Shown: piece after piece, positions 20,814 through 29,699 of the stretch
Layout of the letters: each line of letters opens with the position of its first letter
Numbering within the stretch: the first letter of the stretch is position 1
NCBI GenBank assembly: GCA_022750195.1
Contig: JAKIWE010000004.1
Span: 1-64,000 of the forward strand
DNA length: 64,000 bases
Reading direction: 5' to 3'
From: Thermoplasmata archaeon
GTDB lineage: Archaea; Thermoplasmatota; Thermoplasmata; Lutacidiplasmatales; UBA184
Notes under the pieces: model-generated
The model's database searches: none
Told to the model about the DNA's origin: nothing
The model's input: the letters and a program-made list of their open reading frames with translations, nothing else
Program-made: the position numbers and the translations under genes

Positions 20814-23783
20814 TCAAGGCTCCGACGCGCCGGACGCCTCGGGGGAGGGGTCGATCGCACCGGGGTCGGTATCCGGTGGGGGTTCGCCGCCGGAGGGCTG
20901 GCGACGGCGACCGACGATCAGCCACGCCGCCAGGACGCCGCCCGCCCCGACCCCGACCCCCACGATCACCCACGTGAGCGGCACGACGCCGGTCACGACC
21001 CCCGGCACGGGGGGCGGCGCGACGATGCTGAGGTTCGTCGACGCCGCGACCTGGTCGCCGATCCCATCCGAGACCGACACCCCCACGCCGAAGTTCCCCG
21101 TGGCATTCGGTGTGCAGGCGACCCGCGGGCCGTCGACCGCGGCGCATCCCGACGGCAACCCGCTCCATGCGTAGTGCCGCGGCGCGTTGCCCCCGACGAC
21201 GTTCGTGGTGAACGCGACGCTATCCCCCAGGACGATCGGGGTCGTGTTCACGCTGAGCGTCGCCGACAGCGGAACGATGACCTCCACCGCCGTCGGGACC
21301 GTTACCTGCTCGCCCAGGTGGTCGGTGACCGACACGCTCGGGTGGTAGGTTCCAACCAGGGCGTAGGTGTGGTTCACCATCGCACCACTCGCGCGTGGCG
21401 AGCCGTCGCCGAAGTTCCAGTTCAAGGCGAACGGCGCCGCCCCCCCGGCGGAGGTCGCGGAGAAGTCGACCCGAAGCGGGGCGGCGCCGATCGCCGTCGA
21501 GCGCGATAGGTTCACGGTGAGGGGGGCGACGACATCGATCGTCGTGCTGGCGGGAACGGAAAGGCCCGACGAGTCGTTGACCGTCAGATTGACACGGTAG
21601 GTCCCGGGGGCGGAGAAGGTGAACACCTGGGAGGCACCGGTCGCGGTCGCGCCCCCGTCACCGAAGCTCCAGTCGAACGTGTACGGCGCGAACCCGCCCT
21701 GCGCGGCCGCACCGAAGGTGACCTGCAGGGGTGCGACCCCGAGCGCCGGCGTGGCGACGAGCTGCGCGGTCAACGGCGTGGCGACCGCGATCAAGAACGG
21801 TTGGGAACGGGTCACGCCGTTGCCGTCGGTGACGTTGACGAATCCATGGTAGGTCCCCGCGACGGTGTAGGTGTGCGGCACCGAGACGGCACCGCCGAGG
21901 TAGCCACCGACGTAGGGTGAGCTTCCGTCCGCGAAGTCGACGGCGATCGAGTACGGTCCGCTCCCTCCCGTGGTCGTGAGGTTCAGCTCCACCGGGAGCG
22001 GGACGATCCCGCGCAGCGGGGTCGCTGTGAAGACGCTCACGAGGAACCTCGACGCGACGGTGACGTTCCCGGCCGAGAGCTGGTCGTGCCCGTCACTGTC
22101 GGAGACGTTCAGCGTCCAGCTGAAATTGCCCCGGACGGGGTAGGTGTGGTTGGTATCCGCGGAGAGGTTCGAGCTCCCGTCGCCGAACCGCCAGACGGTA
22201 CGGACCGGGGGGAGCCCGCCGTGATCGCCGGCGGTGAAGTGGACGGTCAACGGGGCATCCCCCGCGAACGGCGCGGCGAGCGGCGCGGCCGTGAGGGGCG
22301 CGTACGCCTCGACCGAGAGTCCGTCGTGGAGCACGTCGCCGGCGGCGTCCGTCGTGGTCAGGTTCACGGTGTAGACTCCGGGCGCCGTGAAGCCGTAGCT
22401 CGCGTTCGCGCCCGTCCCGATCGACGTCCCGTTGGCGAGCGCCCAGGCGTAGGTGAACGGCCCGTGCCCGTAGACCTGGGAACTGAAGTTCGTGTCGAAC
22501 GGGACGATGTCCCGGAGCGGAGACCCGTGAACGAACGCCGAGAACGCGACGGAGAGGTTCCACGTCTCGGTCGACTGCGAAAAGGAGTTCGGCACCGTGT
22601 TGCCGGAGAACAGGAGGGCGGAACCGGTCGCTGGGTCGGCGGCGAAATCGGCGTCCCAGATCCCGCCGGGGTTCTGCCTCAAGTTGAGGTCGATCCAACG
22701 ACCGTCGGTGAACGCCCACGTGTCGTTCGCGAACGACCCGCAACCGACCGACGCCCAGCCACCGTAGAGGACCACCCCCCCGAGGAACGGTGCATCGGCC
22801 ATCATGCGCGAGCCGGCGCCGACCGGCGGCGCGACCGAGAGGTTGCCCGTCAAATTCGTGTACGCGCCATGCCGGTAGGTCCACGTCGACCCCTCGTAGC
22901 CCGCCCCGGTGCAGTTGCCTCCGCCCGACGCCGACCCCCCGTAGAACAGGACGAACCCATCGGTCGTATCGTAGGTCGCGAAGGTGAGCCCGTTCGGGTT
23001 TCCCGGGGAGTTGGTGACGCTGGCGGTGAGGTTCGTCCAGTTTCCGGCGCGGTAGCTCCAGGTGCTGTTGTAGTACCCTGGGGTCCCGGGCATGATGCTG
23101 TCGCCGCCGAACAGGAGGACGTACTGGTCCGCGGCGTCGTACACGAGCCGCCCCGTCGTCAGGGGGGGCGGCGCGCCGCTCGCGTTGACGAGCGTCCAGT
23201 TCGTCCCGTTGAAGGTCCAGGTGTCGTTGAAATCGGTGGCCCCGTTCCGCCCCCCGAAAAGGACGACGCACTGATCGTAGGCGTCGTAGGTCATCCCGAA
23301 GTACCACCGCGCGGCAGGGGCGATGGCGTTGGACGGCAACTTCGACCAGTTCCCGTCGGAGAAGAACCAGGTGTCCCCTCGGGCGAGACCACCCGACTCA
23401 CCCCCGAACAGGACGTACTCCCCGGCGAGGGGATCGTAGACCATTTCCCCGGACTGTCGCGGGGGCGGCGAGACGCCGGTGCCGCCGGAGAACAGTTCGG
23501 TCCAGTTCGCGATCACCGCGGTCGATGAACCGTTGCTGCTCGGGCGCGGGGCGAGGACCGAGCGCGGAGGTGGCGCGACGGCCCCCGTCCCGGCCGGTGC
23601 TCCCCCGGCCGCTGCGACCGGGCTCCTAGGTGTCGACGGGGTCGGGTGCGCCGCGAATCCCACGGGCGCCATCGGGGCGGCCAGCAGGGCCACGAGGACC
23701 ACCGCGACCACCGGAGCTCCGGCCCAACGCGCGTACCTCGGTCCTAAGGAATCTCTCCGATTTCGGCCTACCAGCAGGTTCAC
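20814..23783 (-). CDS. Kelch-propeller and PKD-domain surface protein
   Basis: 989 aa, GTG start; TATA-like TTTTTCTA at 23803-23810. Signal peptide at about residues 18-45. Residues 95-410 hold six Kelch-like blades (YVLFGGESGG, CVVLFGGRNG, YVLLFGGDS, FVLFYGGSA, VVLYGGWAS, ALLFSGNTV), each ending in a W-x-F/Y strand, enough for a six-bladed propeller. From 420 to 925 are about six PKD-type beta-sandwich domains with FGDGSSN, FADGSSP, FGDGGAT and FGDGSPR signatures. A C-terminal transmembrane helix (about 932-957) is followed by RRR and an acidic cytoplasmic tail. Many N-x-S/T sites suggest glycosylation. Probably an adhesin or envelope component. Confidence 0.93.
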   Translation of the reverse strand: MNLLVGRNRRDSLGPRYARWAGAPVVAVVLVALLAAPMAPVGFAAHPTPSTPRSPVAAAGGAPAGTGAVAPPPRSVLAPRPSSNGSSTAVIANWTELFSGGTGVSPPPRQSGEMVYDPLAGEYVLFGGESGGLARGDTWFFSDGNWSKLPSNAIAPAARWYFGMTYDAYDQCVVLFGGRNGATDFNDTWTFNGTNWTLVNASGAPPPLTTGRLVYDAADQYVLLFGGDSIMPGTPGYYNSTWSYRAGNWTNLTASVTNSPGNPNGLTFATYDTTDGFVLFYGGSASGGGNCTGAGYEGSTWTYRHGAYTNLTGNLSVAPPVGAGSRMMADAPFLGGVVLYGGWASVGCGSFANDTWAFTDGRWIDLNLRQNPGGIWDADFAADPATGSALLFSGNTVPNSFSQSTETWNLSVAFSAFVHGSPLRDIVPFDTNFSSQVYGHGPFTYAWALANGTSIGTGANASYGFTAPGVYTVNLTTTDAAGDVLHDGLSVEAYAPLTAAPLAAPFAGDAPLTVHFTAGDHGGLPPVRTVWRFGDGSSNLSADTNHTYPVRGNFSWTLNVSDSDGHDQLSAGNVTVASRFLVSVFTATPLRGIVPLPVELNLTTTGGSGPYSIAVDFADGSSPYVGGYLGGAVSVPHTYTVAGTYHGFVNVTDGNGVTRSQPFLIAVATPLTAQLVATPALGVAPLQVTFGAAAQGGFAPYTFDWSFGDGGATATGASQVFTFSAPGTYRVNLTVNDSSGLSVPASTTIDVVAPLTVNLSRSTAIGAAPLRVDFSATSAGGAAPFALNWNFGDGSPRASGAMVNHTYALVGTYHPSVSVTDHLGEQVTVPTAVEVIVPLSATLSVNTTPIVLGDSVAFTTNVVGGNAPRHYAWSGLPSGCAAVDGPRVACTPNATGNFGVGVSVSDGIGDQVAASTNLSIVAPPPVPGVVTGVVPLTWVIVGVGVGAGGVLAAWLIVGRRRQPSGGEPPPDTDPGAIDPSPEASGASEP

Positions 23784-24628: not shown

Positions 24629-26998
24629 TCAATCCCCTTCCGCACCGCTCGCCCCCCGGGTCGCGGCCGGGAGGAGCCGCGCCTGGGCCCGGGACTCGAC
24701 GGAGCGGTACCGGTGCCGCGGGGGGGCCGCGCCGCCCCCCCACCGCTCGAGCAGGGCACTCCGCGTGACGCCGAGCGGCGCGAGCAGCGTCTCGGCCGAG
24801 CGGGCGAGGAGCTCGAGGTAGGCGCCGACGTCGTACCGCTCGTCGCCCGCGAGCCGCTCGGCCGCGACGACCCGGTCGTGCACCGAGCGGGAGCGCCGGT
24901 CGACGATCAGGTACCGCACCGCCTCGCCGGCCGCCCGCGCGACGCCGTGGTGGGCGAGCTGGCGGACCGCGGCGACCGAGTCGGTGAAGGTGACGAACGC
25001 CGCCGGCTCCTGCCCGAGCCGGTGGGTGATCAGGAGCTCCTCCCGCGGCCACGCGCCGTCCGCGAGTCGCGAGGCGAACAGGTCGGCGCGGGCGAGCACC
25101 TTCGGCACCGTCGCGCGGAGCTCGGTCGAGTTCCGCGCCTTGCCGAACGCCTCCAACAGCTCCTGCTCGAACCGCCGGACGTACGTCGGCGTGTCCTGCC
25201 GCCGCGAGCCGATCCCGCGGAGCTTGAACTCCCCGTGCTCGTACCGACCGTAGTACCGGTTCGGCACGCCCAGCCCGTGGGTCACCGCGGGCAGGAAGAC
25301 GATCCAGCGGTACCGCCCCTCGTAGCCGAGCGGCAGGTCGAACTCCTTGCTCATCGCGGCGGCGAACGCCGGGGCGTCCGGCGAGACGCCCGGCCGGGAC
25401 GGCACCAGCCAGAGGGAGTCGACGAGGCCGTGGACGACAGTGTAGCCGGCCGCCTCCGCCCTCGGGATCAGCGCCGCGATGAGCTCGCGGGCGTAGGCGT
25501 TGATCGCTTCGTGGCACTCGATCCGCCCGAACCGGGCGTTCCGGTACCCCTGGTAGCCGAAGGCGGTCACCAGCACCCACTTGAGCATCCGCGCCCGCTC
25601 GGTGAACCGTCGGCGCTCCGCGAGCGGCCGGTGCGGGTCCTTCATCGCCGCCTTGTAGGCGAGCCGGCGGGTGAGCAGCGGCTCCAGCGTCCGGGGGATC
25701 AGCCCCTTGCGTTTCTCGCAGGAGCGGTAGCCGAGCCCCGGCGCGCGTCGCCGGCTCTTCGGGCAGCACCGGCACTCGAGCGTCTCCGTCGAGAGGTTGT
25801 TCCGCACCATGAGGTGCGGGTAGAGGCTCGCGAAGTCGAACTCGTCGACCGCATCGTGGACGCCGACCGGCGGGAGGAAGATCACACCGCCGCGGTCGGC
25901 GGCGACGAGCGTTCGCCCGGTCTTGAACTCCTCCGGCCGGTTCTTCTTCCACGGGACGTGGACGCCCATCTTCAGCGCCTCCGCGATCTCCATCGCGGTG
26001 AAGCAGGTCCCCGGCGACTGCCGGGCGACGGTCTGCAGCGAGAGGCACGCCAGGCGCGCGGCGTCGACGAGCCCGTCGATCGCCGCGTCGTCGTACAGGA
26101 ACGAGTTCGCCCGGTCGAGGTGGAAGCGGCCGGGGAGCGGGAAGCTCGCCTCGCTGTGCAGCACCCGGCCGTACGTCGCGAACGACCGGGCCTGCCGGGC
26201 GGGGGCCCAGCGCGCCGGTTCTCGCCCCAGAAAGAAACTCTCCGGCGAGAGCCCGTTCGCCTCGGCCCGGCGGTAGAGCCGCGGGAGGTCGAAGCTGTCG
26301 CCACCGTCGGTGAGCAGGATGTCCGGCTCCTGCCGTGCGAGCTCCCGGACGACCTCGGGCAACAGGTCGCGCTCCGCGCCCTCGAGCAGCGCGTCGCCGA
26401 TCCGCACCGAGGCGACCGGCGGCTCCCCCGGGACGATCCCGTCGCGGCGGTACCCTTCGAGCTCGATCGCGAACGGCCGGACGGTCACCGGCGCCGGGGC
26501 GAGCGCGAGCTCGAGCGACTCGGACGGCGCGGTCGCGGTGACGCGCTCGGCGTCCCAGCTGACCGGGGCGAACGGATAGAGCTCGTGCGTCAGGTAGTAG
26601 AGCTGCGGCGCGCCCAGGTCGACGTCGTAGAGCGTGAGCTGGTGGTAGGCGCCGATCGCGTCGACGCACGTCGCGAGCCGGCGCCGGTCGTAGAGGCGCC
26701 GCGGGACGATGGCGAGCAGCCGCCGGCGCCGGTGGTCGAAGAGCGACGGGCGGACGACCGACCACTCCGCCGACTCGACGCGGGGGTCGTCGCGGAGCTT
26801 CCCGGCCACCGACTGAAGGAGCGCCTTCGGTCCGTCGACGAGGAACGGGGGGCGGTAGGCGAGCGGGCGCGGCGTGACCCGGCCGCTCGTGCGCTCCTTG
26901 AGCCAGAGGACGATGGAGCGGCCGTCCCGGCTCTCGCCGATGTCGAGCAGCCAGCCGTCGGGCACGCGCTCGGTCGGGGCGCCGGAGCCCCCGCTCAC
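24629..26998 (-). CDS. polB2: Family B DNA polymerase, PolB2 (Dpo2)-like
   Basis: 789 aa, GTG start overlapping the previous stop (GTGA). Motif A is intact (DFASLYP, residues 388-394). Motif B is altered (K473-WVLVTAFGYQGYRNARFG; usually Kx3NSxYG). Motif C reads HGLVDSLW: only the second Asp of DTD remains (D527). The exonuclease domain is decayed: Exo I reads AIE (177-179, Asp lost), though Exo II-like GGDSFDLP persists. A Cys cluster (CRCC at 409-412, C427) follows motif A. The GYRNARFG and VDS signatures are those of archaeal PolB2, regarded as a damage-tolerance polymerase rather than the replicase. No proofreading is expected. It is last in an operon with a RadA-like protein and a small helical protein. 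Confidence 0.85.
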   Translation of the reverse strand: MSGGSGAPTERVPDGWLLDIGESRDGRSIVLWLKERTSGRVTPRPLAYRPPFLVDGPKALLQSVAGKLRDDPRVESAEWSVVRPSLFDHRRRRLLAIVPRRLYDRRRLATCVDAIGAYHQLTLYDVDLGAPQLYYLTHELYPFAPVSWDAERVTATAPSESLELALAPAPVTVRPFAIELEGYRRDGIVPGEPPVASVRIGDALLEGAERDLLPEVVRELARQEPDILLTDGGDSFDLPRLYRRAEANGLSPESFFLGREPARWAPARQARSFATYGRVLHSEASFPLPGRFHLDRANSFLYDDAAIDGLVDAARLACLSLQTVARQSPGTCFTAMEIAEALKMGVHVPWKKNRPEEFKTGRTLVAADRGGVIFLPPVGVHDAVDEFDFASLYPHLMVRNNLSTETLECRCCPKSRRRAPGLGYRSCEKRKGLIPRTLEPLLTRRLAYKAAMKDPHRPLAERRRFTERARMLKWVLVTAFGYQGYRNARFGRIECHEAINAYARELIAALIPRAEAAGYTVVHGLVDSLWLVPSRPGVSPDAPAFAAAMSKEFDLPLGYEGRYRWIVFLPAVTHGLGVPNRYYGRYEHGEFKLRGIGSRRQDTPTYVRRFEQELLEAFGKARNSTELRATVPKVLARADLFASRLADGAWPREELLITHRLGQEPAAFVTFTDSVAAVRQLAHHGVARAAGEAVRYLIVDRRSRSVHDRVVAAERLAGDERYDVGAYLELLARSAETLLAPLGVTRSALLERWGGGAAPPRHRYRSVESRAQARLLPAATRGASGAEGD

Positions 26999-27255
26999 TC
27001 CGCGGCGAGGGCGGATCCTTTCGCCTCGCCCTTCGGCATCCGCCGGGCGAGGTCGAGGAGGACGGAGAGGAGGATCGACTCGAGCAGGTCCGGGCTCCCC
27101 ACGTACGTCGCCTGCGCGACGTACCGGCGGGCGCCGGTCCGAAGCGTCTCGAAGGCGGCGCGCTCCTCCGGCGTCGTGAGGAGCCGGCCGAACGCCTCCC
27201 AGCGCTTCAGCCGCTCCTCGAGCGCCTGGCGGTAGGTCGGCGCGGTGCGCCCCAT
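26995..27255 (-). CDS. Small helical protein between RadA-like and PolB2 genes
   Basis: 86 aa, ATG 27255. The start is fixed by an unusually complete Shine-Dalgarno sequence 9 nt upstream. The protein is almost wholly helical and charged: YRQALEERLKRWEAFGRLL, FETLRTGARRYVAQATYVG, then ESILLSVLLDLARRM. It lies within overlaps on both sides (49 nt with the RadA-like gene, 4 nt GTGA with PolB2), so it is co-translated with both. I recognise no family. An accessory or bridging subunit of the polymerase complex is a reasonable guess, not shown by sequence. Confidence 0.85.
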   Translation of the reverse strand: MGRTAPTYRQALEERLKRWEAFGRLLTTPEERAAFETLRTGARRYVAQATYVGSPDLLESILLSVLLDLARRMPKGEAKGSALAAE

Positions 27256-28094
27256 GGCGCGATCACCTCCTTCGGTTCGGCCGGCGCGAACGCCTCGAGC
27301 CCGACCTGGTGCGGCCCGCGGGTGACCAAGGTGAGCCGGGCGCCGTCGCGGAACGCGGTGAGCTCGAGCGCGCGGTCGCTCGCCTCCACGCGGACCATGT
27401 CGAAGAGCCGGGGCCCGCAGTCGGCGAGCCCCGGGAACCCGGCGAGGCCGTGGGGGAGCGTGAGCAGGAGCGGCCGCCGGCTGGTGCGCAGCAGCTCCTG
27501 CAGCGTCGCGGCGACGTGGCGGAGCAGCGGGGTCCGCTCCTCGGCGGGGAGCTCCTCGGCGTTATCGAAGAGCGTCGGCAGGTCGTGGCCGATGAGCAGC
27601 GAGGCGGGGACGCGCCGCACCTCCTTCGCCCAGCCGTCGACGAGGGCGACCAGCTGGTAGGCGGTGAACGCCCGGGCGAGGCGGATCCGGTCGAGGACCG
27701 CCTCCGGGTCGGTCCCGACGCCCCGGCCGGCTTCCGCGATCCGGTACGGATGGAACCGGTTCGCGCCTTCGATCAGGGAGAGCCGGCCGCCGGCGAGCGC
27801 GCTCCCCGCGTAGAGCAGCTCGAGCAGCGGCTCGAGCGCGGAGCTCGCGCCGACCCAGAGCGTCGCCTCGCCCGGGGCGAACCTCCGCTCGAGCCAGTCG
27901 AACAGCGGAGGGTGGGCCGGGAGCAGACGGCGGGTCGAGGGTCGGGCGGCGCGCGGCGTCGAGCGGCGGACGACCGGGGTCGACGAGGGCGCCGGCCGCG
28001 GGAACGGCGTCGGGATCGGCGTCGGGCCGACGTCCGGGAGCGACGGCGCGACGGCGTCGAGGCCGCCGGCTGACCGAGCGAACAAGGGAACCAC
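27207..28094 (-). CDS. RadA/RecA-like paralogue without Walker A (putative ImuA-like partner of PolB2)
   Basis: 295 aa, GTG start, with CTTAAG at 28121-28126 upstream. Residues 1-60 are Pro/Arg-rich and look disordered. From 62 the RecA fold is recognisable: the Walker A position reads LWVGASSALEPLLELL (no GxxxxGKT). After it come RLSLIEGANRFHPYRIAEAG and DPEAVLDRIRLARAFTAYQL, which match the RadA/RadB segment xxTEGxFRPERIxxIAE...LDxVxxARAF. The Walker B-side strand (PLLLTLPHGL) lacks a clear acidic end. ATP hydrolysis is therefore unlikely. First gene of the operon with the small helical protein and PolB2; an inactive RecA-like protein beside a damage polymerase parallels bacterial ImuA. Confidence 0.75.
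   Translation of the reverse strand: MVPLFARSAGGLDAVAPSLPDVGPTPIPTPFPRPAPSSTPVVRRSTPRAARPSTRRLLPAHPPLFDWLERRFAPGEATLWVGASSALEPLLELLYAGSALAGGRLSLIEGANRFHPYRIAEAGRGVGTDPEAVLDRIRLARAFTAYQLVALVDGWAKEVRRVPASLLIGHDLPTLFDNAEELPAEERTPLLRHVAATLQELLRTSRRPLLLTLPHGLAGFPGLADCGPRLFDMVRVEASDRALELTAFRDGARLTLVTRGPHQVGLEAFAPAEPKEVIAPWGAPRRPTARRSRSG
27261..27272 (-). promoter_or_regulatory. Full-length Shine-Dalgarno sequence before the small helical protein
   Basis: AAGGAGGTGATC, the full complement of a canonical 16S rRNA 3' end, with 5-nt-plus spacing to the ATG at 27255. It lies inside the RadA-like coding sequence. Most neighbours lack such a site, so this internal gene relies on SD-driven initiation. Confidence 0.75.
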
Positions 28095-28120: not shown

Positions 28121-28126
28121 CTTAAG
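28121..28126 (-). promoter_or_regulatory. TATA-like box of the RadA-like/PolB2 operon
   Basis: CTTAAG about 30 nt before the GTG at 28094; the only AT-rich hexamer between the operon and the zinc-ribbon gene upstream. Confidence 0.5.
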
Positions 28127-28143
28127 CCGGTGACCGGAGGGTA

Positions 28144-28171
28144 GGAAACGGGCCGAAGGCTCGGCGTTTCC
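28144..28171. repeat. Strong inverted repeat / hairpin just upstream of the PolB2 operon promoter
   Basis: GGAAACG-GG-CCGA-AGGC-TCGG-CGTTTCC: 11 paired bases with a 2-nt bulge and a 4-nt loop. It lies about 20 nt upstream of the operon's TATA box and about 110 nt past the stop of the zinc-ribbon gene. It could be an operator or upstream element for the damage operon, or an RNA hairpin at the 3' end of the zinc-ribbon mRNA. Confidence 0.55.
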
Positions 28172-28278: not shown

Positions 28279-28503
28279 TCACTCGGTCTGGAGCTTCTCG
28301 AGCGCCTCGGTGTCGGCCAGGTAGAGCTCGGTGTGGCCGCACTTCCGGCAGACGTGGGCCTCGAAGCGGCCGACCGAGGAGATCTGGCCCCAGCGCAGCG
28401 CGAGGAACGTAGCGCCGGACATGCCCCCTCCGGTCATGACCCGATTGACCCGGCGGACGTCCTCGTTACCGCAAACACTGCAGGCACGAACGGTCGCTGG
28501 CAT
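28279..28503 (-). CDS. Small zinc-ribbon protein
   Basis: 74 aa, ATG start, with a CTTTTAGG box at 28524-28531, 25 nt upstream. Two knuckles, CSVCGNED and CRKCGHTELYL, are separated by a Gly-rich linker (VMTGGGMSGATFL). This is the layout of archaeal nucleic-acid-binding Zn-ribbon proteins of unknown function. It has its own promoter and is same-strand with the PolB2 operon. Confidence 0.85.
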   Translation of the reverse strand: MPATVRACSVCGNEDVRRVNRVMTGGGMSGATFLALRWGQISSVGRFEAHVCRKCGHTELYLADTEALEKLQTE

Positions 28504-28733: not shown

Positions 28734-29699
28734 CTATACGTATGGGTGCGGACGGACGCCCCGGATCTCGTCGGCGGTGGCCGTCCAGACGAACGGTCGC
28801 GGAGACCCCCGTGTCCCCCGGAAGTGCTCCCGGAGGGCGTTCTGGAGGCGGTGGGGGTTGGCGAGACCGCTCGGGGTCGTCCGCCTCCGAGCGAACCCCT
28901 CGATGAGGTTGTCGAAGAAGTCGTGGCCGCCGTGCTCCGCCGGGAGGGCATGAAGGTGAAACCTCGGATGGAGGGTCAGCCAGCGCTGGACCGGCGCGGG
29001 TACCGGCGTCGACCGGCGCTCGATCACGAGGTGGACGTCGAGGGCGTGCGGGGTCTCGCGGTCGGCCACCTTCAGGAACGCGAGGAGCTGCGCGGCCCGG
29101 TCCGGCGGTCGTTCGGCGGGTGGACGCCGCCGGGAGTGCGCCGGAAGCGCCGAGAAGGTCAAACGCTCGTCCGCGGAGAAGGCGACCACCCGCTCGAACA
29201 GGCTCAGGTAGACCCCGACCAGGTCGGTGACGCGTCCCACGAACCCGAGTCCCTGGTCGGGGGGTCCCGGGCGGGGACGTCGACGGGGGTCGATCCCGCG
29301 CGCCTTCCAGATGCGCTGCACGGTCGATTTGCTCAGCCCGAGCTCGCGGGCGAGGCTCCGCGTGGACCAGCGGACCGCGTCGGTCGGCGCCCTGGCGAAC
29401 GTTGCGCGGACGGCGGCCTCGACCTGGCTGGGGGGGATGGTCGGGGGCCGTCCCAGGCGGGGCGCATCCTTCGCGATCCCGGCGACGCCGTGAACCAGGA
29501 ACCGTTGCCGCCACCGCGCCACGGTGGCCGGGACCGTCCCGAACTCGCGGGCGATCTCGCGATTGGTGGCCCCCCGAGCCGCACGGAGGACCATGCGGGC
29601 CCGGAGGGCGACCCGAGGCGAGACGGTACGACCCTCGGCGATCCGAAGCAGCCGGTATCGGTCGTTGCGATGGAGCTTGACGGTGGGGGCGCGGCGCAT
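28734..29699 (-). mobile_element. IS630-like transposase gene, catalytic motifs diverged
   Basis: 321 aa. The N-terminal HTH region has ARMVLRAARGATNREIAREFG and VARWRQRFLVHGVAGI; a second HTH-like part has TRSLARELGLSKSTVQRIWKARGIDP. The IS630-type catalytic core follows: GVYLSLFERVVAFSADER (family VDEK region), LDVHLVIERRSTPVPAPVQ (family LxLDNxxxHK) and NLIEGFARR (family NxxE). The second catalytic Asp-Asn reads Glu-Arg and the partner His is missing, so activity is doubtful. I could not find matching terminal inverted repeats or a clear TA duplication at either side; element ends are therefore not given. The frame itself is intact. Confidence 0.85.

Follow-up and report, generated by a model that had tools for sequence, protein, structure and literature searches.

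Why should an archaeon keep a RadA homologue that has lost its ATPase motif beside a DNA polymerase that has lost one of its motif C aspartates, and when would such a set of genes be switched on? The question is raised by a cassette in a 64,000-nucleotide (nt) stretch of DNA from a Thermoplasmata archaeon (the window; GenBank assembly GCA_022750195.1, contig JAKIWE010000004.1, positions 1 to 64,000), in which three coupled genes encode an inactivated RadA (iRadA), a small helical protein (PPB2) and the B-family polymerase PolB2. The trio is a PolB2 mutasome, a system that has already been published, here in a genus that is new for it. A second aspect of the locus appears to be new and weighs more than the extension to another genus: the putative promoter of the cassette resembles that of radA. 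We consider it quite probable that the mutasome is expressed from a GTTTC/TATA promoter akin to that of radA, and that both are induced together by DNA damage.

The cassette genes and the systems they resemble

The cassette and its upstream region contain the following features:
24629..26998, minus strand: PolB2, B-family translesion-type polymerase of 789 amino acids (aa) with a decayed exonuclease (family match, motifs)
25418..25426, minus strand: PolB2 motif C, aa 525-527 LVD, second Asp retained and first gone (motif alignment)
26995..27255, minus strand: PPB2 (arCOG07300-type), small helical protein of 86 aa with an MGRT start (sequence, model)
27207..28094, minus strand: iRadA, RadA homologue without the ATPase motif, 295 aa (family matches, predicted fold)
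27288..27308, minus strand: candidate clamp-binding motif resembling the PCNA-interacting peptide (PIP) box, QVGLEAF, aa 263-269 in the iRadA tail (motif, conservation)
27825..27857, minus strand: Walker A place in iRadA, aa 80-90 WVGASSALEPL, no GK[ST] (alignment, model)
28123..28149, minus strand: promoter element, GTTTC plus C-rich stretch plus TATA-like CTTAAG (upstream comparison)
28144..28171, minus strand: candidate operator dyad GGAAAC-N16-GTTTCC (genome pattern search)

A preliminary description of the locus, made from the window alone, had seen three coupled genes that overlap by 49 and 4 nt, and the list of open reading frames (ORFs) agrees: the minus-strand frames 28094..27207 (295 aa), 27255..26995 (86 aa) and 26998..24629 (789 aa) overlap by 49 nt (iRadA/PPB2) and 4 nt (PPB2/PolB2). 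The window is GC-rich and has numerous long shadow frames, but these three are kept as proteins in relatives and are therefore genes: PolB2 is 60-66% identical in most genomes of the genus, and in genus-type loci PPB2 is 73-99% and iRadA 52-82% identical, with lower values in L041-L043. The 49-nt overlap was seen in every genus-type locus measured; loci L041-L043 and L047-L052 have different gene spacings, the extremes being a gap of 124 nt and an overlap of 35 nt.

The survey covered 61 genomes (the window's own, 36 others of its genus and 24 more distant ones). Since the first iterative profile search caught shadow frames, it was repeated with overlap filtering, in which PPB2 row L015 was dropped, so that it is absent from the PPB2 alignment (A2). 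Counts omit the genome's own copies L001 and L003 (represented by the window row), its own RadA (L002), second copies L034, L039 and L040 (in places also L008, L036, L038 and L055) and fragments L017 and L042. PolB2 was found in 40 of the 61 genomes and PPB2 in 37, all of which also have PolB2. Within the genus 32 of 37 genomes have PolB2, the five without it being 57-80% complete, and in three genomes from other families of the same order PolB2 was not found. By the preliminary description, relatives in which polB2 is never linked to either partner would have spoken against its reading; both partners accompany it in 28 of 30 genus loci, which shows a near-universal linkage of the cassette in this GC-rich Thermoplasmata genus. 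The exceptions are a contig fragment (L030) and the split cassette of genome G027 (L024; also L055, L059), in which polB2 and the pair iRadA-PPB2 are on separate contigs. Outside the genus the full trio is present in six of eight class-level loci, and the other two are PolB2 fragments. Genome G036 carries two diverged, convergent cassettes on one contig (L037, L060), with one iRadA cut by the contig end.

A profile search with the 27207-28094 product, suggested in the preliminary description, returned RadA-type models only: NCBIfam matches at E up to 5 are to Dmc1, RadA and Rad51, and the match to Pfam Rad51 (E 1.5e-4, 21.6 bits) is just below the cut-off of 22. The predicted fold resembles RadA/Rad51/DMC1 (best Foldseek E 2.6e-11; mean predicted local distance difference test score (pLDDT) 74.6); the model is without the N-terminal helical helix-hairpin-helix domain of RadA, and its residues 1-53 have very low confidence. 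Near the Walker A place it has a strand (77-82) and a helix (84-100), and GK[ST] is absent from all 36 iRadA rows that span this place (of 40 rows, or 39 distinct sequences, since L008 is the same locus as one L037 copy). Alignment, family models and fold thus agree with the earlier description of a RadA-like protein that has no GKT at its Walker A position, and not one of the 36 spanning rows has the full motif, the presence of which in relatives would have refuted that description. The genome's own RadA, encoded about 67 kb away on the same contig, retains GEFGTGKTQ.

In the iRadA tail the pattern Q..[LIM]..[FYL] is found in 38 of 40 rows, 36 of them ending in [FY], and Q263 is one of 15 positions that are at least 90% conserved in the iRadA alignment (A1). 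QVGLEAF begins 33 residues before the C-terminus, partly because the last iRadA residues are encoded within the start of PPB2. A canonical PIP box has a second aromatic residue, which is missing here, so that clamp binding is putative. The model of PPB2, of modest confidence (mean pLDDT 69.1), has three helices, in keeping with the 86-aa helical middle protein first described. It begins with MGRT in 36 of 40 rows and MGRS in one, and three rows have GRT or GKS without a visible start Met. At L046:851-1351 the PPB2 frame runs on for about 80 residues that resemble a separate domain.

PolB2 matches Pfam DNA_pol_B (E 4.9e-20), and its motifs bear out the earlier call of a PolB2-type polymerase with a decayed exonuclease and a single Asp in motif C: the exonuclease motifs are eroded, motif A is kept (DFASLYP), and motif C, which is LVDS in the window, has the form [IL]VDS throughout the 43 rows (of 47) that cover it. 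The D(K/R) loop motif is DR in the window and in 31 of 44 rows, the other 13 having D plus another residue. The PolB2 of genome G054 (L052) is interrupted at motif B by an intein-like insertion. The universal loss of the first Asp would suit the early sequence-based reading, found in passages of PMC4104785, by which PolB2 would have no catalytic activity and the complex would act as a regulator of replication or of the choice of origin. We think this quite unlikely, since motif A and the second Asp of motif C are retained, and a Sulfolobus PolB2 in which this Asp is also missing is described as active in translesion extension (PMC11791011; likewise the portion of PMC8764526 consulted). The window's genome also encodes one Y-family polymerase and one more B-family polymerase.

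PolB2, arCOG07300 and an inactivated RadA were placed in one predicted operon in the same passages of PMC4104785, and PMC11791011 names PolB2, PPB2 and iRadA, proposes a heteropentamer model and describes clamp motifs as well as the D(K/R) loop and the MGRT arm. The window cassette matches this system in content, in the order iRadA-PPB2-PolB2 (one of several arrangements published in PMC11791011), in the MGRT arm, the dead ATPase site and the missing RadA N-terminal domain, and in the lost first Asp of motif C and the decayed exonuclease. It differs in a clamp candidate that lies just beyond the 30 terminal residues to which the clamp-motif search of PMC11791011 was limited, in the conserved 49-nt overlap of its genus, in a promoter element that resembles that of radA, and in its surroundings: tblastn with the genome's two own Orc proteins found no Orc1/Cdc6 gene near polB2 in any of 23 loci. 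In PMC11791011 orc1/cdc6 is enriched in PolB2 mutasome neighbourhoods of archaea, an enrichment and not a requirement. The same paper compares the PolB2 mutasome to Pol V, in which a polymerase is likewise bound to a RecA-family protein with a small-subunit arm near the active site; Pol V differs in having a Y-family polymerase, RecA proper and another small subunit.

The preliminary description had asked whether the trio is an archaeal analogue of the bacterial ImuA-ImuB-DnaE2 mutasome, three names that are absent from PMC11791011. Its logic stands, in that a dead RecA-family protein is coupled to a non-replicative polymerase in the archaeon, and the RecA-type partner of the specialised bacterial polymerase is dead in two of three ImuA groups; ImuA1 and ImuA2 are without Walker motifs according to the portion of PMC12926913 consulted, which mentions PolB2 and ImuA without comparing the two systems directly. 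Membership does not stand. The cassette polymerase is B-family and not C-family, and iRadA matches only RadA/Dmc1/Rad51 models. Where the bacterial set has ImuB, an inactive Y-family adaptor, the middle gene of the cassette encodes a helical protein of 86 aa that matches no family in Pfam or NCBIfam. As sets the two are not homologous, and it is extremely improbable that the trio truly belongs to the bacterial mutasome or is closely homologous to it.

The cassette promoter and the promoter of radA

Upstream regions were compared for 31 cassette loci, of which 25 carry the genus label and 6, from near relatives, have no label; rows without the anchor residue (L025, one L037 copy and L047-L052) were left out. 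In the window the GTG start comes about 28 nt after a TATA-like box, a distance that looks like leaderless-type spacing. A C-rich stretch precedes this box, and GTTTC stands before the stretch, about 18 nt (about two helical turns) 5' of the box. GTTTC is kept before 28 of the 31 cassettes, in 26 of them together with the C-run and a TATA-like box. In the split cassette of G027 all three parts stand both before iRadA-PPB2 and before polB2. The window's dyad GGAAAC-N16-GTTTCC is the single exact match to GGAAACN{13,17}GTTTCC in the 2.45-Mb genome, and its left half is less constant among loci than its GTTTC half. GGAAAC was also set against the layout of the origin recognition box (ORB), and this reading was dropped, the G-run being on the opposite side.

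The radA gene was first taken as a negative control; it then became a finding, which was retested at class level (below). GTTTC precedes radA in 16 of 18 resolved genus genomes, or in 18 of 20 with a looser resolution, and it is nearly fixed in place, mostly as CGTTTC[AG]CGACCTCTCCC before CTTATC. Loci whose RadA N-terminus was not located were left out: three in the genus (one in the looser resolution) and four at class level, the latter four being included in the consensus fit below. From the similar element before radA we infer that the cassette and radA would be switched on together in this archaeon after DNA damage.

If so, damage would raise iRadA, PPB2 and PolB2 along with RadA. In the published models, from which the architecture of the complex is taken, PolB2 would be bound by iRadA, which has no ATPase motif, in the manner in which RadA subunits hold one another, and a PPB2 oligomer would place its MGRT arm in the cleft between polymerase and iRadA and so order the active site. 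PolB2 would then extend mismatched ends beyond lesions, as stated for Sulfolobus in PMC11791011, and a clamp-binding tail, perhaps QVGLEAF of iRadA, may tether the complex to PCNA. Damage induction and extender activity as such are taken from Sulfolobus publications.

Several observations weigh against a damage-induced mutasome under a radA-like promoter. The fold search with PPB2 gave nothing significant, which leaves its fold unconfirmed; one PolB2 locus (L045) has neither partner within 14 kb, another (L046) has PPB2 and no iRadA was found there, and no Orc neighbours were found (above). The GTTTC element is not present at three genus loci (L014, L018, L027), and the window reads CGTTTC, without the A of the Sulfolobus hexamer ANTTTC (below). 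The consensus of the wider class fits the genus cassettes moderately (31 loci, mean 2.74 mismatches against 3.50 in shuffles, best shuffle 3.16), and with its three-base spacer it fits the genus radA set no better than shuffles do (20 loci, 3.50 against 3.42, best 2.90); with a two-base spacer, picked after looking, the radA value is 1.60 (3.43 for shuffles, best of 200 being 3.00). Matches to the GTTTC pattern equal those of the reversed control both in the window's genome (5 and 5) and in five genus genomes (14 and 14). Five of these 14 are radA or the genome's own cassette, and the five-genome pattern ended in CTTA and was therefore blind to genus cassettes with CTTTA. With counts equal to controls, the shared element of the window rests on positional conservation, not on genome-wide numbers. 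Lastly, at dinB, which like radA was taken as a control, GTTTC occurs in just 3 of 21 upstream regions, so that dinB is ruled out as a gene that shares the operator in a conserved way. The own dinB (L076:738) does have GTTTCA and a TATA-like box upstream, and it is the only one of the 21 with the full pattern.

Equal counts in the genus, and a position upstream of TATA where general activators may bind, could also mean that GTTTC, C-rich stretch and TATA together are an ordinary promoter feature, uninformative on damage control. Against this stand the scarcity of the element at dinB and the absence of a match to a related pattern at FEN1 and three Orc-type loci of the window's genome, the latter a weak control, since the same pattern also missed the genome's own radA site. 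The PolB3 locus (L078) is without a gene start and was not usable as a control.

The class-level element and a predicted regulon

Outside the genus, cassettes and radA fit the consensus ANTTTCRNNNACCYC, the first six letters of which are the Sulfolobus ultraviolet (UV) and damage motif ANTTTC (passages of PMC5817253, PMC9738581 and PMC6934391). At class level radA has ACTTTC[AG] before the TATA box in 9 of 15 resolved loci and ATTTTC[AG] in two more; ANTTTC is thus found in 11 of 15 upstream regions, against a mean of 3.82 and a maximum of 10 in 1000 shuffles. Five of seven class-level cassettes have ANTTTC, and the other two read GCTTTC and ACATTC. The full consensus was scored against 200 shuffles per set, which were first-order Markov and not exact. 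The seven class-level cassettes (3 exact) have a mean of 0.71 mismatches (shuffles 3.44, best 2.86) and the 19 class-level radA loci (8 exact) a mean of 1.42 (shuffles 3.54, best 3.05); the 21 dinB loci fit hardly better than shuffles (3.62 against 3.68, best 3.29). The ANTTTCRNNNACCYC fits are partly circular, because the consensus was drawn up after seeing class-level radA and cassette promoters. ANTTTC was fixed by the papers, and 51 of the 61 genomic sites described next are neither radA nor iRadA, so these parts are unfitted.

The pattern ANTTTCRNNNACCYCN{4,16}TTWWA has 66 matches, at 61 distinct sites, in 14 class-level genomes, against 2 for the reversed pattern. The 14 were chosen from the 24 genomes outside the genus, mostly for having the element at radA or cassette, and they include two pairs of close kin, each of one genus (G037 with G039, G041 with G054). 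There are 1-6 distinct sites per genome in all except G049, which has 25. By the first plausible downstream ORF, 26 of the 61 sites precede recombination or repair genes: RadA (8), Mre11-like (3), RPA-like (3), iRadA, NurA, Hef, XPD/Rad3-like and XseA (2 each), and Hjc-like and HARP domain genes (1 each). Outside G049 the proportion is 21 of 36, and in G049 it is 5 of 25. Both Hef and the XseA at L187 exceed their NCBIfam equivalog cut-offs, the Mre11, RPA and Rad3 matches are below theirs, the assignments at L162, L192, L202 and L208 are by Pfam only, and the RadA genes at L147, L148, L155 and in G050 and G049 were named by N-terminal sequence and coordinates, not by family scan. Of the other sites, two precede DUF763 genes, one Cdc48 and 15 mobile or defence-type genes (14 of them in G049); 17 of the 61 have neither a repair nor a mobile assignment, and seven of these are outside the family scans. 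Since the choice of ORF was automatic (longest start 10-200 nt downstream), single assignments may err.

The numbers of class-level matches and repair genes also argue against an ordinary promoter feature, which we therefore regard as unlikely. The preferred reading, that mutasome and radA answer together to DNA damage, may extend further. We rate it somewhat probable that ANTTTCRNNNACCYC upstream of TATA marks an SOS-like regulon for recombination and repair in Thermoplasmata. This regulon would contain radA, the PolB2 mutasome and, depending on lineage, mre11, nurA, RPA, hef, XPD, xseA and others, and its element would persist in drifted form at radA and mutasome in the window's genus. If this is true, a shared element at the recombinase, nucleases, RPA and a damage-tolerant polymerase predicts an SOS-like regulon for an archaeal class. 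SOS control in the style of LexA and RecA is not known in archaea, and we found no description of such a regulon in Thermoplasmata among the open-licence PubMed Central (PMC) papers that our searches listed. As the core hexamer is common to both elements, a damage circuit may span Crenarchaeota and Thermoplasmatota; in a Sulfolobus UV study the expression of DNA repair genes was not raised, by the portion of PMC2246294 consulted.

The Thermoplasmata element is like that of Sulfolobus in that the hexamer lies upstream of the core promoter in most of the class-level cassettes and radA genes examined. It differs in its longer consensus, in its place before classical recombination genes, in its drift to CGTTTC in the window's genus, and in its gap of about 17-22 nt to TATA, the -44 to -39 position from the start site given in an excerpt of PMC5817253 implying a shorter one in Sulfolobus. 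Which protein might read the element? An Orc1-2-like regulator, as in Sulfolobus, is a candidate, somewhat less likely than not: Orc1-2 binds ANTTTC (excerpt of PMC9738581), the 11 of 15 radA regions with this hexamer exceed every shuffle, and the window's genome has two Orc1/Cdc6-like genes and a weak third. Opposed to it are the lost A in the window's genus, the longer gap, an ACCYC block after the hexamer that is not in the Sulfolobus motif, the negative search for such an element upstream of the genome's own Orc genes, and the 23 polB2 loci in which no Orc gene was found.

In G049 (L188-L206) the element also stands before Bro-N, DUF1016, RhuM, NotI, two Cas6 and ORF6N genes, which looks as if foreign genes had been recruited into the putative damage regulon. 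DUF763, a family of unknown function, is preceded by the repair promoter element in two families (L158, L211), which makes it a candidate repair protein.

Neighbouring genes

One further gene lies close to the cassette:
28279..28503, minus strand: Zn-ribbon gene upstream of the cassette (family scan)
Loci L033, L034 and L035 have such a gene ahead of the cassette too, and it is doubtful whether it forms part of the cassette. Beyond it, 28734-29699 encodes a transposase-type HTH protein (HTH_23, HTH_32, HTH_29), with no catalytic domain among the 25 of 32 families listed; it is possibly a decayed or domesticated insertion sequence protein. Downstream of the cassette, 20814-23783 encodes a 989-aa protein with kelch and several PKD domains.

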